Part shown: piece after piece, positions 3,865 to 32,968 of the stretch
Layout: every line of letters begins with the position of its first letter
Position numbering within the stretch: position 1 is the first letter of the stretch
From: a virus
Length of the DNA: 35,569 bases
Direction: 5' to 3' (one strand)
IMG/VR virus record: IMGVR_UViG_3300017987_000219
Span: 1 to 35,569 of that record
Program-made: the position numbers and the translations under genes
The notes under the pieces: generated by a model
What the model was told of the DNA's origin: nothing
The model's database searches: none
The model's input: only the letters and a program-made list of their open reading frames with translations

Positions 3865-6447
3865 TTAAAAATGATTCACAACGGTATTTTCAACGCCTGC
3901 CTTAATCGTTGGAACCGGCTCTGGCTCGTTGTATTTATCCCAGTATTCCTTGAACGGCGCCCCGTTGTGCCAGGGTTTGCGCTTCCCGTACCAATTAAGT
4001 ATCCACATATCCTTCTCACTCCTCACCATAGTTTTACCGGCCTTCCTGCCGACGGGGTTGTTGTTGACCCCGACGCACCATCGCCCGTCCAGCGGGTAGT
4101 AATTCCCCTCGATGGCTATCTGGTAGAGCATCATATCGCCTATAGCGTAGTCGGAGTCGTAAAGCTCCATGATCTTCCTGTAAAGCCGCTGCCTGCAAAT
4201 CTTCGTGTCGATCACGAGAGAGGCAAGCGGGAACGTCACGACCCTGTTCCACCGCTTCTTTGCGGGATAACCGCTGGTGTAGTTCTTCACCCTCCTGTGC
4301 AGGAACGGATAATTATTTGCCCTGCTGAACGCCTCCGTTTGCGGGATAGCCGCCACGCCGATGTTCGAGACCCTTGTGTCGTAGAGGGGCTTGAGGGAGG
4401 TCGTGGCGATCATATCTATCCCCTGGATGATAAACCTCGGTACGTCCAGGATGTCGAGCGCTTCGATATAATTATACGGCGCCGCCGACCCGTTGATGTA
4501 GCCCTTTGCCGCAGGAAACCCCTCGAACCTCCTTTTTGGAGTGTTCCTGTAGTACGCCACCTGCGGATGGTTAAAGAGGTGCCTCTCCTCCACGTCGTCG
4601 GTTATGATGGCGTGGATAACCACGCCCGGGGTCGTCTCTATGATCGACTTCATCGAGTTGTGGCTGTGCGGCGCATAGTTATTATCGAATGTCTGGAGCA
4701 CGTGGACCCCGTTCCTCCCCGCCCGTCTCGACGGCCTTATGGTTTTTTTTTTGGCCTTTATGTTCGAGTATTTCAGCCTGTAGTCCTCCACCATTTGGAA
4801 TATCTCCGGTTCCCCCCTTTTGAACATCTTCCTCACGTTCTCGTGCCTTCCGCTGTACCTAGCGCACACGTTCTCGGTCTCCACTATTTTCTTATCTTCC
4901 GCCATCGCCTTGTATAAAAGCGCCCACTTCCACACGTGTGTGTCTTCGACGGGGGCCCTCTTGAAGGCCATATACCCGGATTGGCTTCCGCCCTTGGTAA
5001 AAACGCGACCGTTCCAGCCTATCTCGGGAAGGCCCATCACGCCTTTCTTCTCGTCGTCATATTTCAGAGCAACCACGTCGGCATTCTTCGCTGCTTTCTC
5101 TATCTCCTCTATAGCGTTTGGATAAAGCTCATCGTCTACGTCAAAGACCAACACCCAGTCCCCCATCGCCTGTTCTATCCCCTTGTTTATCAGCGTTCCA
5201 AGGGGCCGCCGAACCGGTTCCTTGACGTACTTTATCCCCGGCGGTTTCATCTTCAGGCCATGCGCCTCCGACAGGACGACGATTACCTCGTAGGGTTTTA
5301 CCGTTTGATTTTCCATATACTCCAGGAACTTGGGAACGTGTTTTCCGTATCCCCCCCACGCAGTCGACACAACGGAGATTCGCGCCCTTGGGGCCGGCGG
5401 CGGGGGCGCATCGGGTAGTTTCGCTGGCGCCTCAACCGGCATCCCCTCGGGCAATCCCTCCAGGAGATCCCCAACCCTCCTGGTGCACGAGTTCTGATCG
5501 TAATAGCAATATTTTTCGATGTACCAGTAGAGCCACTTGTCCTGTGCCTCCATGTCAAACCAGTCGAACTTTATCGCCCTGGACAGATCCGCAAGGTATC
5601 GCAGGTCGTAGGCAACCCAGTGATATTCCGGCTTGCCCCATGCGATGATCGGTTTATGGTGCATCATTGTGTCTATTCCGGAGCCGGAGTTGCCGAGAAT
5701 CACCGCCCTGCAATTTCTGATAAACTCATGTATGTCCACCTTACCCTTATAGACATGGACCTTCGGAGACAACGCAGTCAGCGTTTTCTCCATCTTGTCG
5801 GACTGAACCGTGTGTCTCCCCGTTATGCCATCCATGTACGGGTGGAGCTTAACGACTATATCCCTGTCGTCTATCCGAACGAGCTCCTTCACCACCTGGG
5901 CCATCTTTTTATTGTAATCGCCAAAGTCGTAACGGGTATTGGTCGTGTCCCCTGGAACCTGCCCTAAAACAAGCCAGTAGTCTTCATAAGGAACGGCGGT
6001 TTTCTTAAAGGTGGCGCTGTACTTCATTGTCCCCCGATCTATCCAGTTCCTGACCTTGGTATTAAAAAACTCCTTGACATCCTTCATGTCCACAGACTCG
6101 TAATCCGGCCTGTTGAACGAAATGTCGGAATAGGGGCCGAACCCGAGAATATCGACGGTTGTGTGTATCCCGTCCGGCACAGTAGGTTTAAAAATCCATC
6201 TTTGACGGGCCTCCACGAGGTTGCCGGGAACCTCGAACACGTCGGTGTGATTGTAAACGCATATATCGCACGGGTTGTGTTTTTCCGGGCTGTACGTGCC
6301 GGCAATAAGACCGTTGCACGTAAGATTTTTTGACACCACCTCGAACCCGTATGACTTCAGCGCCTCGGCCAGCCATATCATCTGCTTTGTCCAGCTTGAT
6401 TTTAAATCGCTGTATTTATAATTTTCCAATACCGCTATCTTCGCCAT
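3865..6447 (-). CDS. Three-domain glycosyltransferase
   Basis: An 860-aa protein with three sugar-transfer-like parts. Residues about 1-335 resemble capsule-polysaccharide (KpsS/KpsC-like) transferases: a GQVPGDTTNTRY motif, VVKLHPY, and GNSGSGIDTMMHHKPIIAWG. A proline-rich linker follows (about 343-354). Residues about 355-560 form a GT-A family 2 domain (ISVVSTAWGG, VFDVDDE at 435-440 as the DxD metal motif). Residues about 575-845 look GT8-like: FIIQGID near 672, and a C-terminal KRKPWHNGAPF. No signal or membrane segment, so it should be cytosolic. It starts with a GGAGG site right after a terminator and is embedded between tail genes, suggesting modification of virion surface or host glycans. 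Confidence 0.8.
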   Translation of the reverse strand: MAKIAVLENYKYSDLKSSWTKQMIWLAEALKSYGFEVVSKNLTCNGLIAGTYSPEKHNPCDICVYNHTDVFEVPGNLVEARQRWIFKPTVPDGIHTTVDILGFGPYSDISFNRPDYESVDMKDVKEFFNTKVRNWIDRGTMKYSATFKKTAVPYEDYWLVLGQVPGDTTNTRYDFGDYNKKMAQVVKELVRIDDRDIVVKLHPYMDGITGRHTVQSDKMEKTLTALSPKVHVYKGKVDIHEFIRNCRAVILGNSGSGIDTMMHHKPIIAWGKPEYHWVAYDLRYLADLSRAIKFDWFDMEAQDKWLYWYIEKYCYYDQNSCTRRVGDLLEGLPEGMPVEAPAKLPDAPPPPAPRARISVVSTAWGGYGKHVPKFLEYMENQTVKPYEVIVVLSEAHGLKMKPPGIKYVKEPVRRPLGTLINKGIEQAMGDWVLVFDVDDELYPNAIEEIEKAAKNADVVALKYDDEKKGVMGLPEIGWNGRVFTKGGSQSGYMAFKRAPVEDTHVWKWALLYKAMAEDKKIVETENVCARYSGRHENVRKMFKRGEPEIFQMVEDYRLKYSNIKAKKKTIRPSRRAGRNGVHVLQTFDNNYAPHSHNSMKSIIETTPGVVIHAIITDDVEERHLFNHPQVAYYRNTPKRRFEGFPAAKGYINGSAAPYNYIEALDILDVPRFIIQGIDMIATTSLKPLYDTRVSNIGVAAIPQTEAFSRANNYPFLHRRVKNYTSGYPAKKRWNRVVTFPLASLVIDTKICRQRLYRKIMELYDSDYAIGDMMLYQIAIEGNYYPLDGRWCVGVNNNPVGRKAGKTMVRSEKDMWILNWYGKRKPWHNGAPFKEYWDKYNEPEPVPTIKAGVENTVVNHF

Positions 6448-11866: not shown

Positions 11867-11876
11867 AATCTCTCCG

Positions 11877-11904
11877 GTTTGACAAACTTAAAATTTTGAC
11901 AAGA
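11877..11904. promoter_or_regulatory. Paired dyad element, copy 2 (distal tail block)
   Basis: TTTGACAAACT at 11878-11888 and TTTGACAAG at 11895-11903 (plus strand), centres 11882 and 11899, 17 bp apart. It overlaps the stop codon of the 35-aa membrane peptide (11888-11890) and abuts the Shine-Dalgarno of the 164-aa gene. Same layout as copies 1 and 3. Confidence 0.6.
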
Positions 11905-13801: not shown

Positions 13802-13823
13802 TACTATCCCTCCTTTTTTTTAA

Positions 13824-13852
13824 ATTTGACAAACTTTTTATCTTGTCAAACT
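13824..13852. promoter_or_regulatory. Paired dyad element, copy 3 (patatin cassette)
   Basis: ATTTGACAAACT at 13824-13835 and CTTGTCAAACT at 13842-13852 (plus strand), in inverted orientation; centres 13829 and 13846 are 17 bp apart. It overlaps the TGA stop of the metallophosphoesterase gene (13846-13848) and lies just before the Shine-Dalgarno of the membrane protein gene. Confidence 0.6.
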
Positions 13853-14685: not shown

Positions 14686-14867
14686 ATAATCCTCCTTAAC
14701 AGGACTGGATAGTCCTTGGGATCGTTTGGGTTAAACGTCATAAAGTACGGCTTAAAGGGCAGCTGGGGTTCGGTGTCGATCTCCCACCCGTCCGCAAGAA
14801 AGGGGGCCGTCTGCCCCCTTAATACCTGCATGAACTCCACCCTGTTCCAATTATCTTTCCAGGCCAT
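14679..14867 (-). CDS. Small hypothetical protein after tape measure
   Basis: A 62-aa protein, MAWKDNWNRVEFMQVLRGQT..., aromatic and proline-rich, with no membrane segment. The ATG has a GGAG Shine-Dalgarno supplied by the last unit of a 16-bp tandem repeat. It overlaps the metallophosphoesterase start by 7 bases. The place right after the tape measure is where short tail-tip proteins are often found. Not recognised. Confidence 0.6.
   Translation of the reverse strand: MAWKDNWNRVEFMQVLRGQTAPFLADGWEIDTEPQLPFKPYFMTFNPNDPKDYPVLLRRIIC
14800..14820 (-). terminator. Terminator-like GC hairpin inside the 62-aa gene
   Basis: An 8-bp perfect stem (AAGGGGGC paired with GCCCCCTT) with a 5-base loop on the minus strand, followed by TCTTG. 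The T tract is short, so termination may be weak. It lies in codons for LRGQTAPF and may tune the level of the metallophosphoesterase. Confidence 0.35.
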
Positions 14868-14940
14868 TATTCTCCAAGGCCATTATTCTCCAAGGTCGTT
14901 ATTCTCCAAGGTCGTTATTCTCCAAGGTCGTTATTCTCCA
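14861..14940 (-). repeat. Five tandem 16-bp repeats carrying Shine-Dalgarno sites
   Basis: Five copies of a 16-bp unit, on the minus strand TGGAGAATAAyGrCCT. Three read AACGACC and two read AATGGCC. The first unit holds the tape measure stop codon (GGA GAA TAA) and the last unit supplies the GGAG and ATG of the 62-aa gene. A 16-bp unit is not a multiple of three, so the array is intergenic, not coding. Confidence 0.9.
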
Positions 14941-19024: not shown

Positions 19025-19069
19025 ATTCAATAGGCCCATATTAGTTGATGCCGGGCCGTCCATTTTGGA

Positions 19070-19099
19070 AGTTTGACAAACTCCAGGGTTTGACAAACC
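19070..19099. promoter_or_regulatory. Paired dyad element, copy 4 (tail assembly block)
   Basis: AGTTTGACAAACT at 19070-19082 and GTTTGACAAACC at 19088-19099 (plus strand), both near-perfect palindromes with centres 19076 and 19093, 17 bp apart. Unlike copies 1-3 it lies about 90 bp before the next start codon, with a terminator in between. Confidence 0.6.
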
Positions 19100-21667: not shown

Positions 21668-21696
21668 TAAAAAAGGGGGGCCTTGTGCCCCCCTTA
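21668..21696 (-). terminator. Rho-independent terminator after major capsid gene
   Basis: On the minus strand AAGGGGGGC pairs with GCCCCCCTT around a 5-base loop and is followed by T residues (TTTTTTATT). It is directly downstream of the major capsid gene, a common place for a partial terminator that keeps capsid levels above those of later genes. Confidence 0.88.
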
Positions 21697-24513: not shown

Positions 24514-26073
24514 TTATTTCTGCTCCATATTTTGCTCGTCTTTCCGAGCGTCGCCGGATCCCTCCTGCTTTGTGATTGGAGTTTCCGCCCCGTCCCTGGG
24601 GCTTCCCTTTGCCTGCTTGTTTAAATCCTGTGGGTCGTCTTCCCGGTATTTAGTTGGATCGACACCTGCCTCCTTGAGCATCTTATGCTCCTTAATGACC
24701 TGCTCAAATTCCTCATCGAACGTTGGGAAAGTTCTGCCCTCAAATGCGCTCTTCCTTGAAAGCCTGTAGCTCGCTATCTTCGACTCGTTAATCTTCTCCC
24801 GAATCGTCTGCGAGTCGAAGCTCGTTTCCGGGAAGTCCGCCTTCATCTTCACGCCGACGATCCCGTGGAGCATCAACTCCCGCTCAATTATCGGCCTTAA
24901 TATTTCCCACCACTCGAACCGATTCGCCTCACGGATCATCAGCTCGGTGTGCTTCTTCATTATATCGAGGGTCTCGCCGTTTAGAGAACCCTTGCCCTGA
25001 TACCCCGCGAGATACGCCGGAAACCGAGAGCACATAAACAACAGGTCAAGTTGAACCAGTATGTCCTCTTTACGGATACTGTACATTCTGTTGTCGTTGA
25101 CCGTCTTCACGTCATCGGTCCCAGAGAGAAACAGCATTGAGCCGGCCGTCAACACCTGCTCCCACCCTTCGCCATCGATGCCGACCAGCTCCTCTTTAAA
25201 TTTTCTTATCTGTTCCTCGCTGGCCCCCGCCTCTCTCCCCATTGCGTTGATCGTAAAAACCAGTATGGGCGCCATCGAGAAGTGTGAATCAAGAACGCTG
25301 TCCTCCAGCATCAATTGCGAGCGGTTAAACTGCTCCCGAAGAGAAGTAAACTCCGGCCGGCTGTACCAAATATTGCCGTGCCGCAGGTTGTTCCACCTTG
25401 GGTGAATGACGTTTATGTGAGGTATAAATTTTGCGTTTTCCGGCGGCTCGTCGCCGGGAAAGCCGAGATAGTTTTCCCCTATTTGAAAATAGGCTCTGGC
25501 GGAATTTATCGGCCTGTCGTTGAGGTCGAACCACTTATACGTGTGTTCGGGCGGAAGGTGCCTTAAACCCGTTATGTGGCCCATTATCCTGCCCTGCCTT
25601 ACCAGTTTCAGCACCCTGTCGAGCTTCTCCGTTTTAAGATATCCAAGAATTTCATCGTCGAAATCTATCTCGGTGAGTATGAATTCTTCCCTAAATATTG
25701 CATTGTATAGAAATTGGCCCCGTAATTTCTCATAGGCGGTTCGCTCAATCAGGTTTTCGTATATCTCTTGGGCCCTCACCTTCAGGTTGCCGCCGAACGT
25801 CACGTTCGGCATCGACTCGGACAGCCATGAGATGAAATATTTTGCCGGCCCCTCCATGAAGGAGTTGAGCATCACGTCCATGTCCCGGAGCACCTTGAGC
25901 CGCCCCACCTCCAACGCCAGCCTCTTGAAGAGGTATCCCCAGCGCTGGTCATTCATCGCCGGAATCGAAAACGCCCCCTTGGTCTTATCCTCCCCCTTCT
26001 TAAGTGGCTTCCCGAACTGGTTAACTATAACCGCGTCCAGTTTTTCCTTATTTTTAGTGGATATTCTTCCCAT
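24514..26073 (-). CDS. Portal protein
   Basis: A 519-aa protein between terminase and protease/scaffold, the standard portal location. Residues about 85-125 (VRAQEIYENLIERTAYEKLR) and 305-360 (VDGEGWEQVL-type and KEDILVQLDLLFMCSRFPAY) have the pattern of the DUF935/SPP1 gp6 portal group, and MSR/CSRFPAYLAGYQGKGSL is like portal crown segments. C-terminal tail is polar and disordered (DPQDLNKQAKGSPRDGAETP). Its start lies 20 bases inside the terminase gene. Confidence 0.82.
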   Translation of the reverse strand: MGRISTKNKEKLDAVIVNQFGKPLKKGEDKTKGAFSIPAMNDQRWGYLFKRLALEVGRLKVLRDMDVMLNSFMEGPAKYFISWLSESMPNVTFGGNLKVRAQEIYENLIERTAYEKLRGQFLYNAIFREEFILTEIDFDDEILGYLKTEKLDRVLKLVRQGRIMGHITGLRHLPPEHTYKWFDLNDRPINSARAYFQIGENYLGFPGDEPPENAKFIPHINVIHPRWNNLRHGNIWYSRPEFTSLREQFNRSQLMLEDSVLDSHFSMAPILVFTINAMGREAGASEEQIRKFKEELVGIDGEGWEQVLTAGSMLFLSGTDDVKTVNDNRMYSIRKEDILVQLDLLFMCSRFPAYLAGYQGKGSLNGETLDIMKKHTELMIREANRFEWWEILRPIIERELMLHGIVGVKMKADFPETSFDSQTIREKINESKIASYRLSRKSAFEGRTFPTFDEEFEQVIKEHKMLKEAGVDPTKYREDDPQDLNKQAKGSPRDGAETPITKQEGSGDARKDEQNMEQK

Positions 26074-27724
26074 TTCCTATTCCAACCGACGTCAGGGTTC
26101 GGATGCCGACAGACGTGATATTGCTCCCGCCGGGGATATTCGATCTGCCGCCGTACCTGTCGGTAGTTTTAACGCTTGCCATTGACGGCGCCCCCCACGC
26201 CTGGTAGCTCCCGTCAAGGGCCCTGTATATGCCGTAGTTGACCGCCTTTATTAGGTCGGTCATCTTCTTGCCGGTTCTTTTCTCGCCAGACCCGTACCGC
26301 TGATAACCCCGTTGGATATCTATGTCCGGCGGCATAGCGAGGTCTCCCTCCTCCATCGCCACCAGAGCCAGGTTGTCCACCTCCTGCGATCTCTTCGAGG
26401 AGTCGGTGTCGACAAAGTCTATAGGCAACCCCTCTTCCTGAAGCACCGCCACAATCGCCGCGCCGGGGTTTATGTCCACATACCCGCCCCTGACCTTTAA
26501 AGCTTTATAAAGCCACCTAATCTTGTCCATCAGGGCGTTAATGCTGATATCCTTGCGGCATTCGGGCTTCGAGCTCTCCTCATTCCCCCACTCGGTGGCG
26601 TATCTCACGACCACCCGTGGCTTTTTATCCCTGATCTCGATAACCGAGATCGCCGCTGCGTCGGAGACCTGCCCCTTCTCCCCCTTGCCCTTATTGGGAT
26701 CGCACCCCAGATAGAGCCCGCCGGTCTTCGCCGCCAGTTCGTCGCCGTGTTTTTCGATGTATTCGTCAGTCCAGAGATACTCGTCAAGGTTGAGCACTCC
26801 GCCCGGGAAATTCTCTATACACCGCAGTATCAGCTTCTCGGGATAGAGGCGGTATTTCTGATCCTGGGGGATGGCGAGGTATTCCTCGTCATATACTTCG
26901 GGACAGCCCTTCTCTATAAGCCTTTTCTTTATTTTTAAGAGCTCTTTAAGGTCCTTGTATTTGTTCAGGTGTGATTGAAAAACTCGCTTTAAAAAATCTC
27001 TATCAACGCTACAGGCGTAAGCCATGTTGTCTTTCCCGTTTGGGGTGGTCATCGAATGGAAAATGCTTCCCCCCTGCATGCTTAAATATGGTTCCACGGA
27101 TTCTTTAAAGAAATCCTGGTCAACCACATAGGCAAATTCGTCACAAACGACGATGGTTCGCCCGATAATCGTCCTGCCGAGTCTCCCCGAATAGTAACTG
27201 TACGGGTTCAGGCCCCTTGCCGAGTTGCTGGACGCCCGAACGTGGTATTCCGTCCCGTTCCGCAATTTCAAAAACATCTTGCTGTCGTTGTTCGGGTCGA
27301 TCTCCTCGGCGAAGAGAGGATGAACCGCAAGGAAGTTCCTGATATACCCCAAAAGCTGTTTCGCGGTGTCGAGGTTGTTGCCGGTGATGACAAACCGGAC
27401 TGACATCGGCCTCTTGGTGTCGTAGATCACGCTCTCGGCATAGGGGAGGACAACCCCCCAGTACGCCCACTTTAGGGCGGCTATGTACATCGACTTTCCC
27501 ACCCCCCTGCCACAGAAGTCCATCTGTCTCTTCGAGTGAATATTAAGAAACGCCCCCACCTGATATGGGTCGCTCTCTATCTTCCCGTCTTCCCCTTTTC
27601 GGACCTCTCCCTGAAGCTCCACCTCGAAGAACTCCTTGACGCCCAGGTACGGGTAGTTGTACAGGTTGAGTAGTAGATCCGCCTCAAGATTCCTGAGCCG
27701 CCTGACGTGCTTCGGTTTTTCCAT
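26054..27724 (-). CDS. terL: Terminase large subunit
   Basis: A 556-aa packaging motor and nuclease. Walker A G-R-G-V-G-K-S at about residues 72-78, Walker B VVCDEF at about 192-197, a TTPNG coupling motif near 226, and RNase-H nuclease acids in LGCDPNKGKG (Asp342) and GGYVDINPG (Asp417). It cuts concatemers and pumps DNA through the portal. I chose ATG 27724; a GTG three codons upstream is also possible. It overlaps the previous gene by about 40 bases and portal by 20. Confidence 0.93.
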   Translation of the reverse strand: MEKPKHVRRLRNLEADLLLNLYNYPYLGVKEFFEVELQGEVRKGEDGKIESDPYQVGAFLNIHSKRQMDFCGRGVGKSMYIAALKWAYWGVVLPYAESVIYDTKRPMSVRFVITGNNLDTAKQLLGYIRNFLAVHPLFAEEIDPNNDSKMFLKLRNGTEYHVRASSNSARGLNPYSYYSGRLGRTIIGRTIVVCDEFAYVVDQDFFKESVEPYLSMQGGSIFHSMTTPNGKDNMAYACSVDRDFLKRVFQSHLNKYKDLKELLKIKKRLIEKGCPEVYDEEYLAIPQDQKYRLYPEKLILRCIENFPGGVLNLDEYLWTDEYIEKHGDELAAKTGGLYLGCDPNKGKGEKGQVSDAAAISVIEIRDKKPRVVVRYATEWGNEESSKPECRKDISINALMDKIRWLYKALKVRGGYVDINPGAAIVAVLQEEGLPIDFVDTDSSKRSQEVDNLALVAMEEGDLAMPPDIDIQRGYQRYGSGEKRTGKKMTDLIKAVNYGIYRALDGSYQAWGAPSMASVKTTDRYGGRSNIPGGSNITSVGIRTLTSVGIGNGKNIH

Positions 27725-28577
27725 CTGTTTCACCCGCTGGTTCCGAGAGCCATCTCAAATCTATGTCGTCCGCCCCCTTCTTTTTCCCCTTTATATTGTT
27801 GTTATCTTCTTCAATCTTTTCTCCATTAAGTTTTTTCATCTCGTCCATAAGGTCCGACGTGGCGATCCCCTCCTGGGCCCTTTCCTTCATAGCCTCCGCC
27901 GATTTCGCCAACCCCACGGCCCCGTCCGTCTTGTGTTTCTTTAGCTGGTCGTCGGTGAGGCCGAGAATTTGTAGATATTTCCCCTGGCTGTTGCGGAGAT
28001 CCTTGACAATATCCCACTCGGCTTTGGTGGCGATCTTGCCATTGGCATGGTTCTGCGTCATTATTTTCGAGATCTGGGCTATCTGGGCGTTTACGATAAC
28101 CAGGTTCATCGCCACGTTTCTCAACTGCCCCGTCTCGTCATCCGCCAACATCGGGTAGAGCCTCAACAACTCTTCCTTTGCAAACGGCCAATCTACGTCG
28201 CCGATTATTTCCTTTAGCCGCTTTTCAAAGGCGTTGGACACTCTCAAGTCATCGCCCGGCGTCAGTGAAATTATGTCCGCTACGCTCTTTTTCCCCTTTG
28301 GAATCTTTACACGATAGCCCGGGCACTTCCGGCAGAGGAAATCCACCAACCCGCCCTCTTCGTTCTCGTCAAGGGCGTCCCTTAACCGGCAGAAGGGGGA
28401 GTCTCCATCCTTCGCCGTCTTGTTCGGCTTCCTGTAGATGTACAGGTTCTCCCCACCGATCACCTTCTTGGCGAGCTTCAGGGCCATAGCCGTCTTGTCA
28501 GTATCCCCCCCGTAAAATTCAGACACGACATTCTCGAAGCCCTTATACGAGAGGTATTTTACCTTCCCCGCCGTCAT
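27684..28577 (-). CDS. Hypothetical protein, possible small terminase
   Basis: A 297-aa protein immediately before terL, the usual place for the small terminase. It is basic and helical; about 125-190 (NAFEKRLKEIIGDVDWPFAK, LRNVAMNLVIVNAQIAQISK) could form an oligomerising helical core. The C-terminus is polar (NNNIKGKKKGADDIDLRWL). No obvious N-terminal helix-turn-helix as in classical TerS proteins. It is coupled to the upstream gene by ATGA. The TerS call is by position; it may be a terminase-associated protein. Confidence 0.5.
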   Translation of the reverse strand: MTAGKVKYLSYKGFENVVSEFYGGDTDKTAMALKLAKKVIGGENLYIYRKPNKTAKDGDSPFCRLRDALDENEEGGLVDFLCRKCPGYRVKIPKGKKSVADIISLTPGDDLRVSNAFEKRLKEIIGDVDWPFAKEELLRLYPMLADDETGQLRNVAMNLVIVNAQIAQISKIMTQNHANGKIATKAEWDIVKDLRNSQGKYLQILGLTDDQLKKHKTDGAVGLAKSAEAMKERAQEGIATSDLMDEMKKLNGEKIEEDNNNIKGKKKGADDIDLRWLSEPAGETDGKTEARQAAQES

Positions 28578-29104
28578 AGCCTGTTAAAATACCCGTATTG
28601 CTTGTCAAAATCGGCCCTGTCTGCCGGATCAAGATTTTTGTATCTTTCAAAGAGCTTCTGCCCCTTCGTCATCAGATCGGACTCGCCCCTTATCTCCTTA
28701 AACCCCTGCTCCTTAAGAGCCTGGTTCAGGTCGCTTATCGCAAGGTCCCTCGCCATCCCGAGGAGATATTCGGCATTTTCGCAGTCTATGCAGTCGATAA
28801 GGGGGTACAGCTTCGTGTGGGGGATGTCTCCAATTTCTTGGAAACTTAACCCGAGCTCCACGATAAAAACTCGGTATAGGTCTGCGTAGTAATATGCCGT
28901 CGACTTCCCTATGGAAATCTCGGGCTGGCTGATGAATTCAAGGAAAGACTTACAGTCGAGCAGAGTATAAAGCTCGCTCTCTTTTATCTCGTAAAGGACC
29001 CGGCCGAGCTCAAACACGTCCATCGTCCGCCCGGCCACCATCGACTTAATCTCGTTAAACAGCCGGTGAGCCCTGTCAGCCCTTTCTTGACCATCTCTTA
29101 CCAT
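28574..29104 (-). CDS. Hypothetical DNA-binding-like protein
   Basis: A 176-aa helical protein starting MVRDGQERADRAHRLFNEIK. The stretch FELGRVLYEIKESELYTLLD and then SQPEISIGKSTAYYYADLYR reads like the helix-turn-helix of phage proteins that precede terminase (similar patterns occur in DUF3102-type proteins). It overlaps the HNH gene by 29 bases and the next gene by ATGA. It may be the DNA-recognition half of a small terminase system. Function inferred. Confidence 0.5.
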   Translation of the reverse strand: MVRDGQERADRAHRLFNEIKSMVAGRTMDVFELGRVLYEIKESELYTLLDCKSFLEFISQPEISIGKSTAYYYADLYRVFIVELGLSFQEIGDIPHTKLYPLIDCIDCENAEYLLGMARDLAISDLNQALKEQGFKEIRGESDLMTKGQKLFERYKNLDPADRADFDKQYGYFNRL

Positions 29105-29345
29105 CGAAATATATACCGTACTTCTTTATAAAACTTTGCCGCCCGAGTCTTCCCACCTCGTCGTGGTGGTAATGACAGAGCGGCATGAGATTTTCTATCG
29201 TATCGTCGCCCCCGGCGCCCCGCGTTTTCACGTGATGTGGCTCGGTTACGCCGATACAGTCCCGATTATCTACCAAACACCCCCATAACCTTACGCTTTT
29301 AAGGATTGCCTCGCTTTTTATCCTCTTCGGCTTCGGAATCTGCAT
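29076..29345 (-). CDS. HNH endonuclease near packaging genes
   Basis: An 89-aa nuclease, first gene of the packaging block. Signature: CLVDNRDC, then EPHHVKTRGAGGDDTIENLM and LCHYHHDEVG, that is a Cys pair, His-His, Gly-Gly-Asp-Asp, Asn, and a C-x-x-H-H. Phage HNH proteins of this type often aid terminase cleavage. ATG 29345 is the natural start by family pattern, yet it directly follows the T run of a terminator and has no Shine-Dalgarno. A GTG at 29381 lies in the hairpin and also lacks one. Expression may depend on readthrough. Confidence 0.82.
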   Translation of the reverse strand: MQIPKPKRIKSEAILKSVRLWGCLVDNRDCIGVTEPHHVKTRGAGGDDTIENLMPLCHYHHDEVGRLGRQSFIKKYGIYFDGKRWSRKG

Positions 29346-29375
29346 AAAAAAATGGGGGTGGATTTCTCCACCCCC
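29346..29375 (-). terminator. Rho-independent terminator abutting the HNH start
   Basis: On the minus strand GGGGGTGGA pairs with TCCACCCCC around a GAAA loop (a stable tetraloop), followed by A and seven T residues. The T run touches the HNH ATG. It would stop transcription before the packaging/head genes unless transcription is antiterminated. Confidence 0.85.
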
Positions 29376-29393
29376 CAACACAAGGAGGTAATT

Positions 29394-29501
29394 ATGAAGG
29401 GCAGTTTAACGTCATGCCCGGGATTCCTAACTTATACCGCCGATGCGCCAGGCTGGTTCAGCGGAAACCTTTTTACATTACCTGCCACTGGCAGGGAATA
29501 A
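29394..29501 (+). CDS. Plus-strand 35-aa mini-ORF with strong Shine-Dalgarno
   Basis: AAGGAGG with a 5-base gap to an ATG (29394-29396) opens a 35-residue frame, MKGSLTSCPGFLTYTADAPG and on to LPATGRE, ending TAA at 29501. It is the only well-supplied ribosome binding site on the plus strand and it is followed by a bidirectional terminator. No plus-strand promoter was found. On the minus strand the same region has a 31-codon frame (29432-29527, MNPPLSGFFYSLPVAGNVKR...) with a weaker start. The region may encode either peptide or act as a leader or antisense RNA. I do not recognise the peptide with confidence. Confidence 0.4.
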   Translation: MKGSLTSCPGFLTYTADAPGWFSGNLFTLPATGRE

Positions 29502-29524
29502 AAAAACCCGCTCAATGGCGGGTT
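29501..29524. terminator. Bidirectional terminator in control region
   Basis: AACCCGC (29505-29511) pairs with GCGGGTT (29518-29524) around a 6-base loop. On the minus strand a T run follows directly; on the plus strand CATCTTTTT follows. It lies between the promoter at 29609-29637 and the terminator before HNH, so minus-strand transcripts face two stops in a row. A further small hairpin (CCTGCC/GGCAGG) is at 29481-29495. Confidence 0.8.
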
Positions 29525-29573
29525 CATCTTTTTCGGCGCTTACATCCCGGGGGAGTGGCCGATAAGTTTTTCT

Positions 29574-29599
29574 TCAAGTACTTGAGTATATTACTCAAG
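29574..29599. promoter_or_regulatory. Overlapping palindromes at transcription start, likely operator
   Basis: TCAAGTACTTGA (29574-29585) is a perfect 12-bp palindrome. CTTGAGTA-TAT-TACTCAAG (29581-29599) is a perfect 8-bp inverted repeat with a 3-bp centre. They share the half-site CTTGA. On the minus strand they lie at about +3 to +28 from the predicted start of the promoter at 29609-29637, a normal place for a repressor operator. Confidence 0.65.
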
Positions 29600-29608
29600 C
29601 ATTGTCTA

Positions 29609-29637
29609 ATTATAAAATCTCTTTATTGCTTTGTCAA
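29609..29637 (-). promoter_or_regulatory. Consensus sigma70-type promoter, leftward
   Basis: On the minus strand TTGACA (29632-29637) and TATAAT (29609-29614) are both perfect and 17 bp apart. The predicted start is near 29602. It is in the only sizeable AT-rich gap in this half of the window and points at the packaging and head genes. The -35 sits in CTTGACAAAG, which resembles one half of the paired dyad elements. Confidence 0.88.
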
Positions 29638-29671: not shown

Positions 29672-30079
29672 CTATTGCTCCTCCATAAGAACAACAAGGG
29701 CCTTGATGCAGGCGAGATAGAGGATTCTATCGCCACACGTACGGAGAAGATTGCCTGACGAATAATCAACTCTCCACTCGTCACTATACCAAAACCCAGC
29801 ATAAACACTCATAGATCTAATCTTCTCCATCACCCACTCCAGCGGGGGGATGAGGATGCCATGAACGGCTCCATCAAAAACGGTTCCTTCATAACCCGTT
29901 GTCTCGAAAAATGGGTATTCCGTTGGCCAGATTTTTGTTATTAAAACGGGATAAGGCTCAAGGGGACTCCCATTTTCTCCCATTGGTACAAACCACCACC
30001 CCACTTCCGGCTTTTTTATCAACGGTCGTATCTTCTCTGCTTCCTTTATGACCTCTTCATTTATCCAGTCTGGTTTCAT
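29672..30079 (-). CDS. Hypothetical protein
   Basis: A 135-aa soluble protein starting MKPDWINEEVIKEAEKIRPL, rich in Trp, Tyr and Pro in the middle (VGWWFVPMGENGSPLEPYPV). The C-terminal helix (ILYLACIKALVVLMEEQ) is amphipathic rather than a true membrane segment. It overlaps the zinc-ribbon gene by 23 bases and is the last gene before the control region. Phage proteins of this layout are common in early accessory regions; function not recognised. Confidence 0.65.
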   Translation of the reverse strand: MKPDWINEEVIKEAEKIRPLIKKPEVGWWFVPMGENGSPLEPYPVLITKIWPTEYPFFETTGYEGTVFDGAVHGILIPPLEWVMEKIRSMSVYAGFWYSDEWRVDYSSGNLLRTCGDRILYLACIKALVVLMEEQ

Positions 30080-32294: not shown

Positions 32295-32751
32295 AAATTA
32301 TAAAATACCTCCCGATATTTACGGCGTCCGCCTCGTTATCGTCCCAGATTTGCTTCTTTGCCGCGTCAGACGCCACTAAAATTGATTGCTGTTTCCTCGT
32401 TTTTCTGTCCATGTTTTTGGAAGACCCCAGCATTTTCGACTGCCATTGGTTCGGCGTGACCGTCTCCGTTACCACCCCCACAAACTTCACGGCGGCCAGC
32501 ACGGGGAAAATCGCCTTAAATCGCTCCAGCACCTTCAGCGTCTTTATGTTTTTCCCGTAAAACGTGTCCTCGATGACCAGCCAGTCCAGCGCCTTCAGCC
32601 CGTCGACGACTTTTCCACATTTCCCGACCGCATCCTCGAAGCTTTCGGGTGAAATAACCCCGCTTTTTCGATATTGCCCGTTTTCATACAGCGCCCACCC
32701 CATCTTTTTTGAAGACGGGTCCACCGCCATCACCGTTTTTGTGTTCGACAT
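32275..32751 (-). CDS. RuvC-like Holliday junction resolvase
   Basis: A 158-aa RNase H-fold nuclease. Acidic catalytic residues are in place: MAVDPSSKKMGWAL (Asp10), LVIEDTFYGKN (Glu near 61) and a C-terminal WDDNEADAVNIGRYF (Asp/Glu pair). It would resolve branched DNA before packaging. It overlaps both neighbours (68 bases with the HTH gene, 20 with the unknown). Length fits phage RuvC-like enzymes. No recognised Shine-Dalgarno, so coupling is likely. Confidence 0.85.
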   Translation of the reverse strand: MSNTKTVMAVDPSSKKMGWALYENGQYRKSGVISPESFEDAVGKCGKVVDGLKALDWLVIEDTFYGKNIKTLKVLERFKAIFPVLAAVKFVGVVTETVTPNQWQSKMLGSSKNMDRKTRKQQSILVASDAAKKQIWDDNEADAVNIGRYFIIYGKANK

Positions 32752-32968
32752 ATTCCGTTATAAATTTCCTCGTCCTGTTCAGGCGTCCCCTGACAGCCAT
32801 TTCTGTGGTCTCGAAAAGCTCCGCTATCATTTTCTCGTCAAACCCCTCGATGAAAAGCCGGAAGATGTAGGCGTTCTCATCGCTTAACCTGAAGACCGCC
32901 TCGATCAATATCCCCACGGTCTCCCTCTTGATAAGCTCGCTCTCGGGATCCAGTGTCGTCCCCGACAT
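32684..32968 (-). CDS. Small sigma-region-4-like HTH protein
   Basis: A 94-aa protein. Residues about 28-70 (LSDENAYIFRLFIEGFDEKM, then IAELFETTEMAVRGRLNRTR) have the pattern of sigma70 region 4 / LuxR-type helix-turn-helix: a hydrophobic helix, I-A-E-L-F, then a recognition helix A-V-R-G-R-L-N-R. It lacks region 2, so it cannot be a full sigma factor. It may be an anti-sigma, transcription regulator or RNA polymerase-binding protein. AGGAG lies before the ATG. It is a candidate binder of the paired dyad elements, by inference only. Confidence 0.65.
   Translation of the reverse strand: MSGTTLDPESELIKRETVGILIEAVFRLSDENAYIFRLFIEGFDEKMIAELFETTEMAVRGRLNRTRKFITEYVEHKNGDGGGPVFKKDGVGAV

Follow-up and report, generated by a model that had tools for sequence, protein, structure and literature searches.

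A candidate lambda pR'-tR'-type late-promoter switch with a double palindrome in an uncultured phage fragment

Results and discussion

A putative late-promoter switch between two gene blocks

The virus fragment IMGVR_UViG_3300017987_000219, a 35,569-bp IMG/VR record of an uncultured phage analyzed here over its whole length (the window), carries on its minus strand a compact control region in which a consensus sigma70 promoter is followed by two overlapping perfect palindromes and then by two intrinsic terminators. This control region is real and non-random, and we give an even chance to its being a late-promoter switch resembling lambda pR'-tR', in which a short leader would be antiterminated. 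By analogy with characterized systems, such a switch, which could also be named an AlpA/PA0807-like late promoter under the same reading, appears to be the likeliest explanation of the region.

In the mechanism that we propose, host RNA polymerase would start at about 29602 from the consensus promoter and its default product would be a short leader of ~100 nt, or of ~250 nt once past terminator 1. A phage factor would modify the polymerase near the promoter, leading to read-through of both terminators and transcription of the genes for HNH, terminase, capsid and tail. Most likely, the double palindrome would gate this modification of the polymerase as a site bound either by the antiterminator/activator or by a repressor acting as a roadblock; this double palindrome downstream of the start is the one unusual feature of the control region.

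All recognised genes of the fragment are carried by the minus strand, and since its right end cuts DnaB the fragment is incomplete, with one genome end absent. The longest gap in the gene map, of 326 bp, extends from ORF 29672-30079 to the HNH ORF (start at 29345); it holds the promoter, the palindromes and both terminators, and it separates two minus-strand gene blocks. The upstream block includes DnaB, a Sak4-like ATPase, a sigma-region-4-like ORF, a RuvC-like resolvase and an M23 peptidase, and the downstream block the HNH, terminase, major head protein and tape measure genes, with the capsid and tail functions. The control gap lies where the replication/recombination genes (DnaB, Sak4-like, RuvC) give way to those for HNH, terminase, capsid and tail. 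The HNH endonuclease gene (29076-29345, minus strand) is the first of the late/packaging operon, in which the terminase large subunit lies further downstream (26054-27733, minus strand; phrog_2, E 4e-18).

Some further features of these blocks were recorded. The ATG of the HNH gene directly abuts the terminator 2 U-tract. It lacks a Shine-Dalgarno sequence, its 0.2 kcal/mol being one of the two poorest values for 36 starts, and translation of HNH may call for some special arrangement. Adjoining HNH, 28574-29104 encodes a 176-aa protein with a weak likeness to phrog_17202, which also resembles, below the family cut-off, the Borrelia borfam_49 replication/partitioning family; it is possibly a small terminase or a partition-like protein. 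For a 180-aa protein encoded after RuvC, structure prediction gave low confidence.

Promoter and predicted transcription start

The initial annotation had placed a consensus sigma70 promoter at 29609-29637, and the sequence TTGACA-17 bp-TATAAT found there on the minus strand does agree with the consensus at 12 of 12 bases. It is the single 12/12 site in the window, no other site exceeding 10/12 in a sigma70 consensus scan; a 12/12 site was absent from all 60 dinucleotide shuffles of the whole window and was present in 0.015% of shuffles of the 326-bp gap. The predicted transcription start, judged from the sequence, is at 29602, ~7 nt past the -10 box. The spacer between -35 and -10, AAGCAATAAAGAGATTT, was read directly, without statistics, and displayed no palindrome and no clear Q-type binding element, just a short A-rich repeat of AAAG, with copies 8 bp apart. 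The initial transcribed region contains -10-like hexamers of the sigma-pause kind (TAATAT at +10 and TATACT at +13) falling inside the palindrome, against a background in which 33% of the 36-nt windows of this genome have one.

On the minus strand from 29350 to 14000 (~15 kb) no sigma70-like site above 9/12 was found, and the 9/12 sites of this stretch occur at the chance rate. Thus, with no promoter above chance downstream and a leader that is predicted to be terminated, the late operon most likely depends on read-through from the promoter at 29637-29609.

Terminators and leader RNA

The stem of terminator 1 (29504-29525, minus strand) begins at about +78 and is followed by TTTTATT, its hairpin being available on the plus strand too. 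The stem of terminator 2 (29354-29375, minus strand) begins at about +228 and is followed by ATTTTTTT, the U-tract reaching 29346; with its predicted -20.5 kcal/mol, it exceeds in strength every other hairpin plus U-tract of the minus strand. Terminators had earlier been assigned to 29501-29524 and 29346-29375, and the stems at 29525-29504 and 29375-29354 bear this out, the coordinates first given for the control region being correct within a few bases. Two terminators in the gap were obtained in 0/1500 shuffles, and one or more, under the same rule, in 1.1%.

The terminated leader RNA predicted from these features (29495-29602, minus strand, ~100 nt) opens with a 5' hairpin, continues through an A-rich linker into a middle hairpin and closes with the terminator. 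Its fold (-33.6 kcal/mol, z = -4.48) was equalled in stability by none of 200 shuffles. No Rfam family matched the window at its gathering score, there being just weak sub-threshold matches, and the best matches to boxA- and ops-like elements were too poor to use.

Strong intrinsic terminators were also seen within the late block, one at 21673-21695 behind the gene for the major capsid protein (-18.3 kcal/mol), the other ahead of the gene at 3865-6447 (-16.0 kcal/mol, U-tract from 6465). A long late transcript would also need to pass these inner terminators (tails at 21672 and 6465). On the plus strand, 29382-29501 holds an antisense mini-ORF of 35 codons, MKGSLTSCPGFLTYTADAPGWFSGNLFTLPATGRE, that stops just short of the plus-strand form of terminator 1; a perfect AAGGAGG lies five bases ahead of its ATG at 29394, an arrangement displayed by 0.14% of the gap shuffles. 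This mini-ORF had no phage match, and a good plus-strand promoter for it was not seen.

Two overlapping palindromes past the predicted start

Two overlapping perfect palindromes past the promoter had been reported in the initial annotation, and both are present. The first is a perfect 8-3-8 palindrome, CTTGAGTA-ATA-TACTCAAG (29581-29599, minus strand, about +4 to +22); the second, TCAAGTACTTGA, is 12 bp long (29574-29585, minus strand) and overlaps the right arm of the first, so that together they span about +4 to +29. They contain three CTTGA half-sites in alternating orientation, the third of which is contributed by the second palindrome and lies 21 bp past the first half-site. An 8-bp arm within 40 nt past the -10 box was obtained in 0.26-0.4% of shuffles, and both palindromes together in 0.0017% (1.7e-5).

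The palindrome could be a DNA operator or an RNA hairpin. As RNA, the first palindrome gives a 10-bp hairpin whose stem is 2 pairs longer than the DNA palindrome (one G-U, one U-A), and a good RNA stem is possible from the first palindrome only. The three alternating half-sites favour a protein-binding site, and the double palindrome is most likely a site of this type, which would gate the late switch from within the initial transcribed region.

No second copy of the palindrome is found in the fragment, the CTTGAGTA arm being exact at this site only. The initial annotation had suggested looking for the palindromes in relatives; the exact 19-bp form was in no viral contig searched, and its relaxed-centre form was in 10 stretches versus ~14 by a rough chance estimate, that is, about as often as chance would give, none of the 10 adjoining a comparable promoter. 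Among the proteins scanned, from a fragment that is incomplete, no repressor gene was recognised.

A sigma-region-4-like protein as candidate regulator

The initial annotation had identified no antiterminator gene in the window. Here, too, no homologue of Q, AlpA, N or GafZ passes a family cut-off in the fragment, which is without one genome end and may be missing the gene; the initial annotation did miss, as a candidate regulator of the late genes, a 94-aa protein resembling sigma-70 region 4 (32684-32968, minus strand), encoded 3 kb upstream of the promoter. Its match to Sigma70_r4_2 (E 1.5e-5, 25.0 bits) is just under the Pfam cut-off of 25.7; it also matches ECF sigma families below their cut-offs, and its match to Phage_antitermQ is not significant (E 0.065). 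A structure model was of low confidence (pLDDT 57.6) and the fold search gave no match.

This ORF is a reasonable candidate, given that the fold of 21Q helices H3-H6 resembles that of sigma region 4 (PMC6606751) and that a sigma-like HTH is predicted in GafZ (PMC11150451). Nevertheless, 21Q and AlpA need an N-terminal ring segment as well (PMC9371919), and the ORF has no obvious N-terminal nozzle segment, its 94 aa leaving little room for one. The protein may equally be a late activator.

Comparison with known systems

The experimentally worked-out units that match the layout are those controlled by AlpA at PA0807 and alpB (PMC7969949, PMC9371919). In P. aeruginosa, the PA0807 terminators begin at +26 and +247 and the alpB terminator at +54, and AlpA carries the polymerase past them (PMC7969949). 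As here, where the terminators begin at about +78 and +228, a sigma70 promoter is followed by one or two intrinsic terminators before the first ORF. However, AlpA promoters have the binding element GGGACG-N5-GGTA between -35 and -10, whereas the palindromes described here are only downstream of the start, and a relative of AlpA was not detected in the fragment.

With the lambda-type pR'/tR'/Q systems (lambda Q, 21Q, 82Q) the region shares the location at an early/late boundary, a constitutive promoter and a short terminated leader with a 5' hairpin, as well as a RuvC-type resolvase and a sigma-region-4-like gene upstream. Lambda pR', folded alongside as a control, has a 9/12 promoter, and its leader likewise starts with a hairpin (+2 to +25) and finishes with a terminator. 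The fragment differs from it in having a full consensus promoter and two terminators, in the lack of a Q homologue and of a clear Q-binding element, and in a late operon that opens with HNH/terminase and not with lysis genes.

GafZ/GafY of the Caulobacter GTA cluster is comparable in that the promoter of a packaging/capsid operon carries a palindrome and that the antiterminator is sigma-HTH-like (PMC11150451), a sigma-HTH-like gene being present here as well, although the GafZ palindrome is between -35 and -10 and the terminator there comes after the first gene. The region is a candidate addition to a class already known, that of late promoters whose leaders are terminated. If so, late-gene antitermination of the lambda/AlpA style would extend to a phage without close relatives in the collections searched. 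The compact leader would then hold, past the start, a site at which loading or repression may take place, and the small sigma-like protein would be the first candidate factor. Since the known Q-like antiterminators are dissimilar in sequence, the authors of the AlpA structure expect that more of them will be found via structure (PMC9371919).

Alternative explanations

The initial annotation had likened the region to a repressed, antiterminated switch. The anatomy fits a promoter whose transcript would stop ahead of the late operon unless the terminators are bypassed; no repressor was recognised in the incomplete fragment, the palindrome is single-copy and the Phage_antitermQ match is insignificant. 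A credible but unlikely alternative is that the promoter is purely repressor-controlled, the palindrome being an operator at which a repressor bound at +4 to +28 would block initiation or early elongation; derepression with partial read-through would switch the operon on, and the terminators would merely limit leakage and keep early transcription from running into the late genes, thus shielding them. Two overlapping palindromes with a common arm and three half-sites would be expected of a DNA operator and are unneeded for an RNA hairpin, and such shielding would be needed, as there is no terminator between the upstream gene stop (29672) and the promoter. Against it, neither a repressor gene (in a fragment missing one genome end) nor a second operator copy was recognised, and terminator 2 is predicted to be so strong that derepression alone would yield little late RNA. 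Within the antitermination reading, we consider it improbable that the antitermination factor, possibly a short protein of sigma region 4 only, loads at the double palindrome of the initial transcribed region and not at the spacer, or that a repressor roadblock and antitermination act on one leader.

Other explanations concern the leader itself. The promoter, leader and terminator 1 might form a self-contained gene for a ~100-nt trans-acting phage sRNA, with the late genes driven otherwise. The compact transcript, having a 5' hairpin, an A-rich single-stranded linker and a U-rich terminator, as well as its folding z-score, would suit this, and such leaders can double as sRNAs, as is the case for IsrK of Salmonella Gifsy-1 (PMC4825925), a short phage transcript that is terminated but, on read-through, enters the next genes, and that has a Q-like gene nearby. 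We regard the sRNA explanation as rather improbable, as it leaves the second terminator and the drive of the late operon unexplained, and the leader has no sequence or Rfam-level match to IsrK, no match to any other Rfam family and no relatives found; it would be compatible with the lambda-type switch rather than exclusive of it. Equally doubtful is an ordinary operon boundary without a dedicated switch, in which a constitutive promoter is followed by an mRNA-stabilising 5' hairpin and by terminators of moderate efficiency that attenuate late expression. Terminators recur elsewhere among the late genes (tails at 21672 and 6465), hence attenuation may be routine here, and the RNA stem does extend 2 pairs beyond the DNA palindrome; yet two predicted strong terminators in series, ahead of the entire structural operon, would waste most of the initiation from a perfect promoter, and the overlapping second palindrome would be unexplained. 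Finally, a cis-acting antiterminator RNA like the put RNA of HK022, working without a dedicated protein, is highly improbable. There are two hairpins directly past the promoter, and putL too has a -10-like sequence near +23 (PMC9378689), which bears on the suggestion made with the initial annotation that a put-like RNA be looked for; but a ~16-nt A-rich linker parts the two hairpins, unlike the compact ~70-nt put element, which serves early genes (PMC9378689), and a cis element would be always on, giving the late genes no timing.

Searches for relatives and other repeats

Protein-seeded scans with the terminase, major capsid protein, HNH and Sak4-like ATPase, together with two genome scans, found no relative, and no relative carrying the control region was present in the collections searched, which may omit records very near the window. 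DnaB and an ATPase alignment with phiES15 gave 4 and 72 loci; these have in common with the window essentially the seed protein (or DnaB) only, so they offer no control region to compare. When the intergenic region was compared with phages and plasmids, only short pieces around terminator 1 matched.

A dispersed repeat was observed on the minus strand of the late region, consisting of pairs of GTTTGTCAAAC-like near-palindromes exactly 17 bp apart (1454-1491, 11867-11904, 13814-13851 and 19061-19098); every pair lies shortly ahead of the start of a gene. At one mismatch or fewer there are 9 matches versus 0.45 expected, a result seen in 0/100 shuffles. The core of the repeat, TTTGTCAA, is found over the -35 box as well (29630-29637), and the pairs are candidates for operators or stoperator-like sites of some regulator. 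Separately, 14851-14940 is a tandem array of TTATTCTCCAAGGCCA-like units with a 16-bp period, which reaches the start region of the tape-measure gene.
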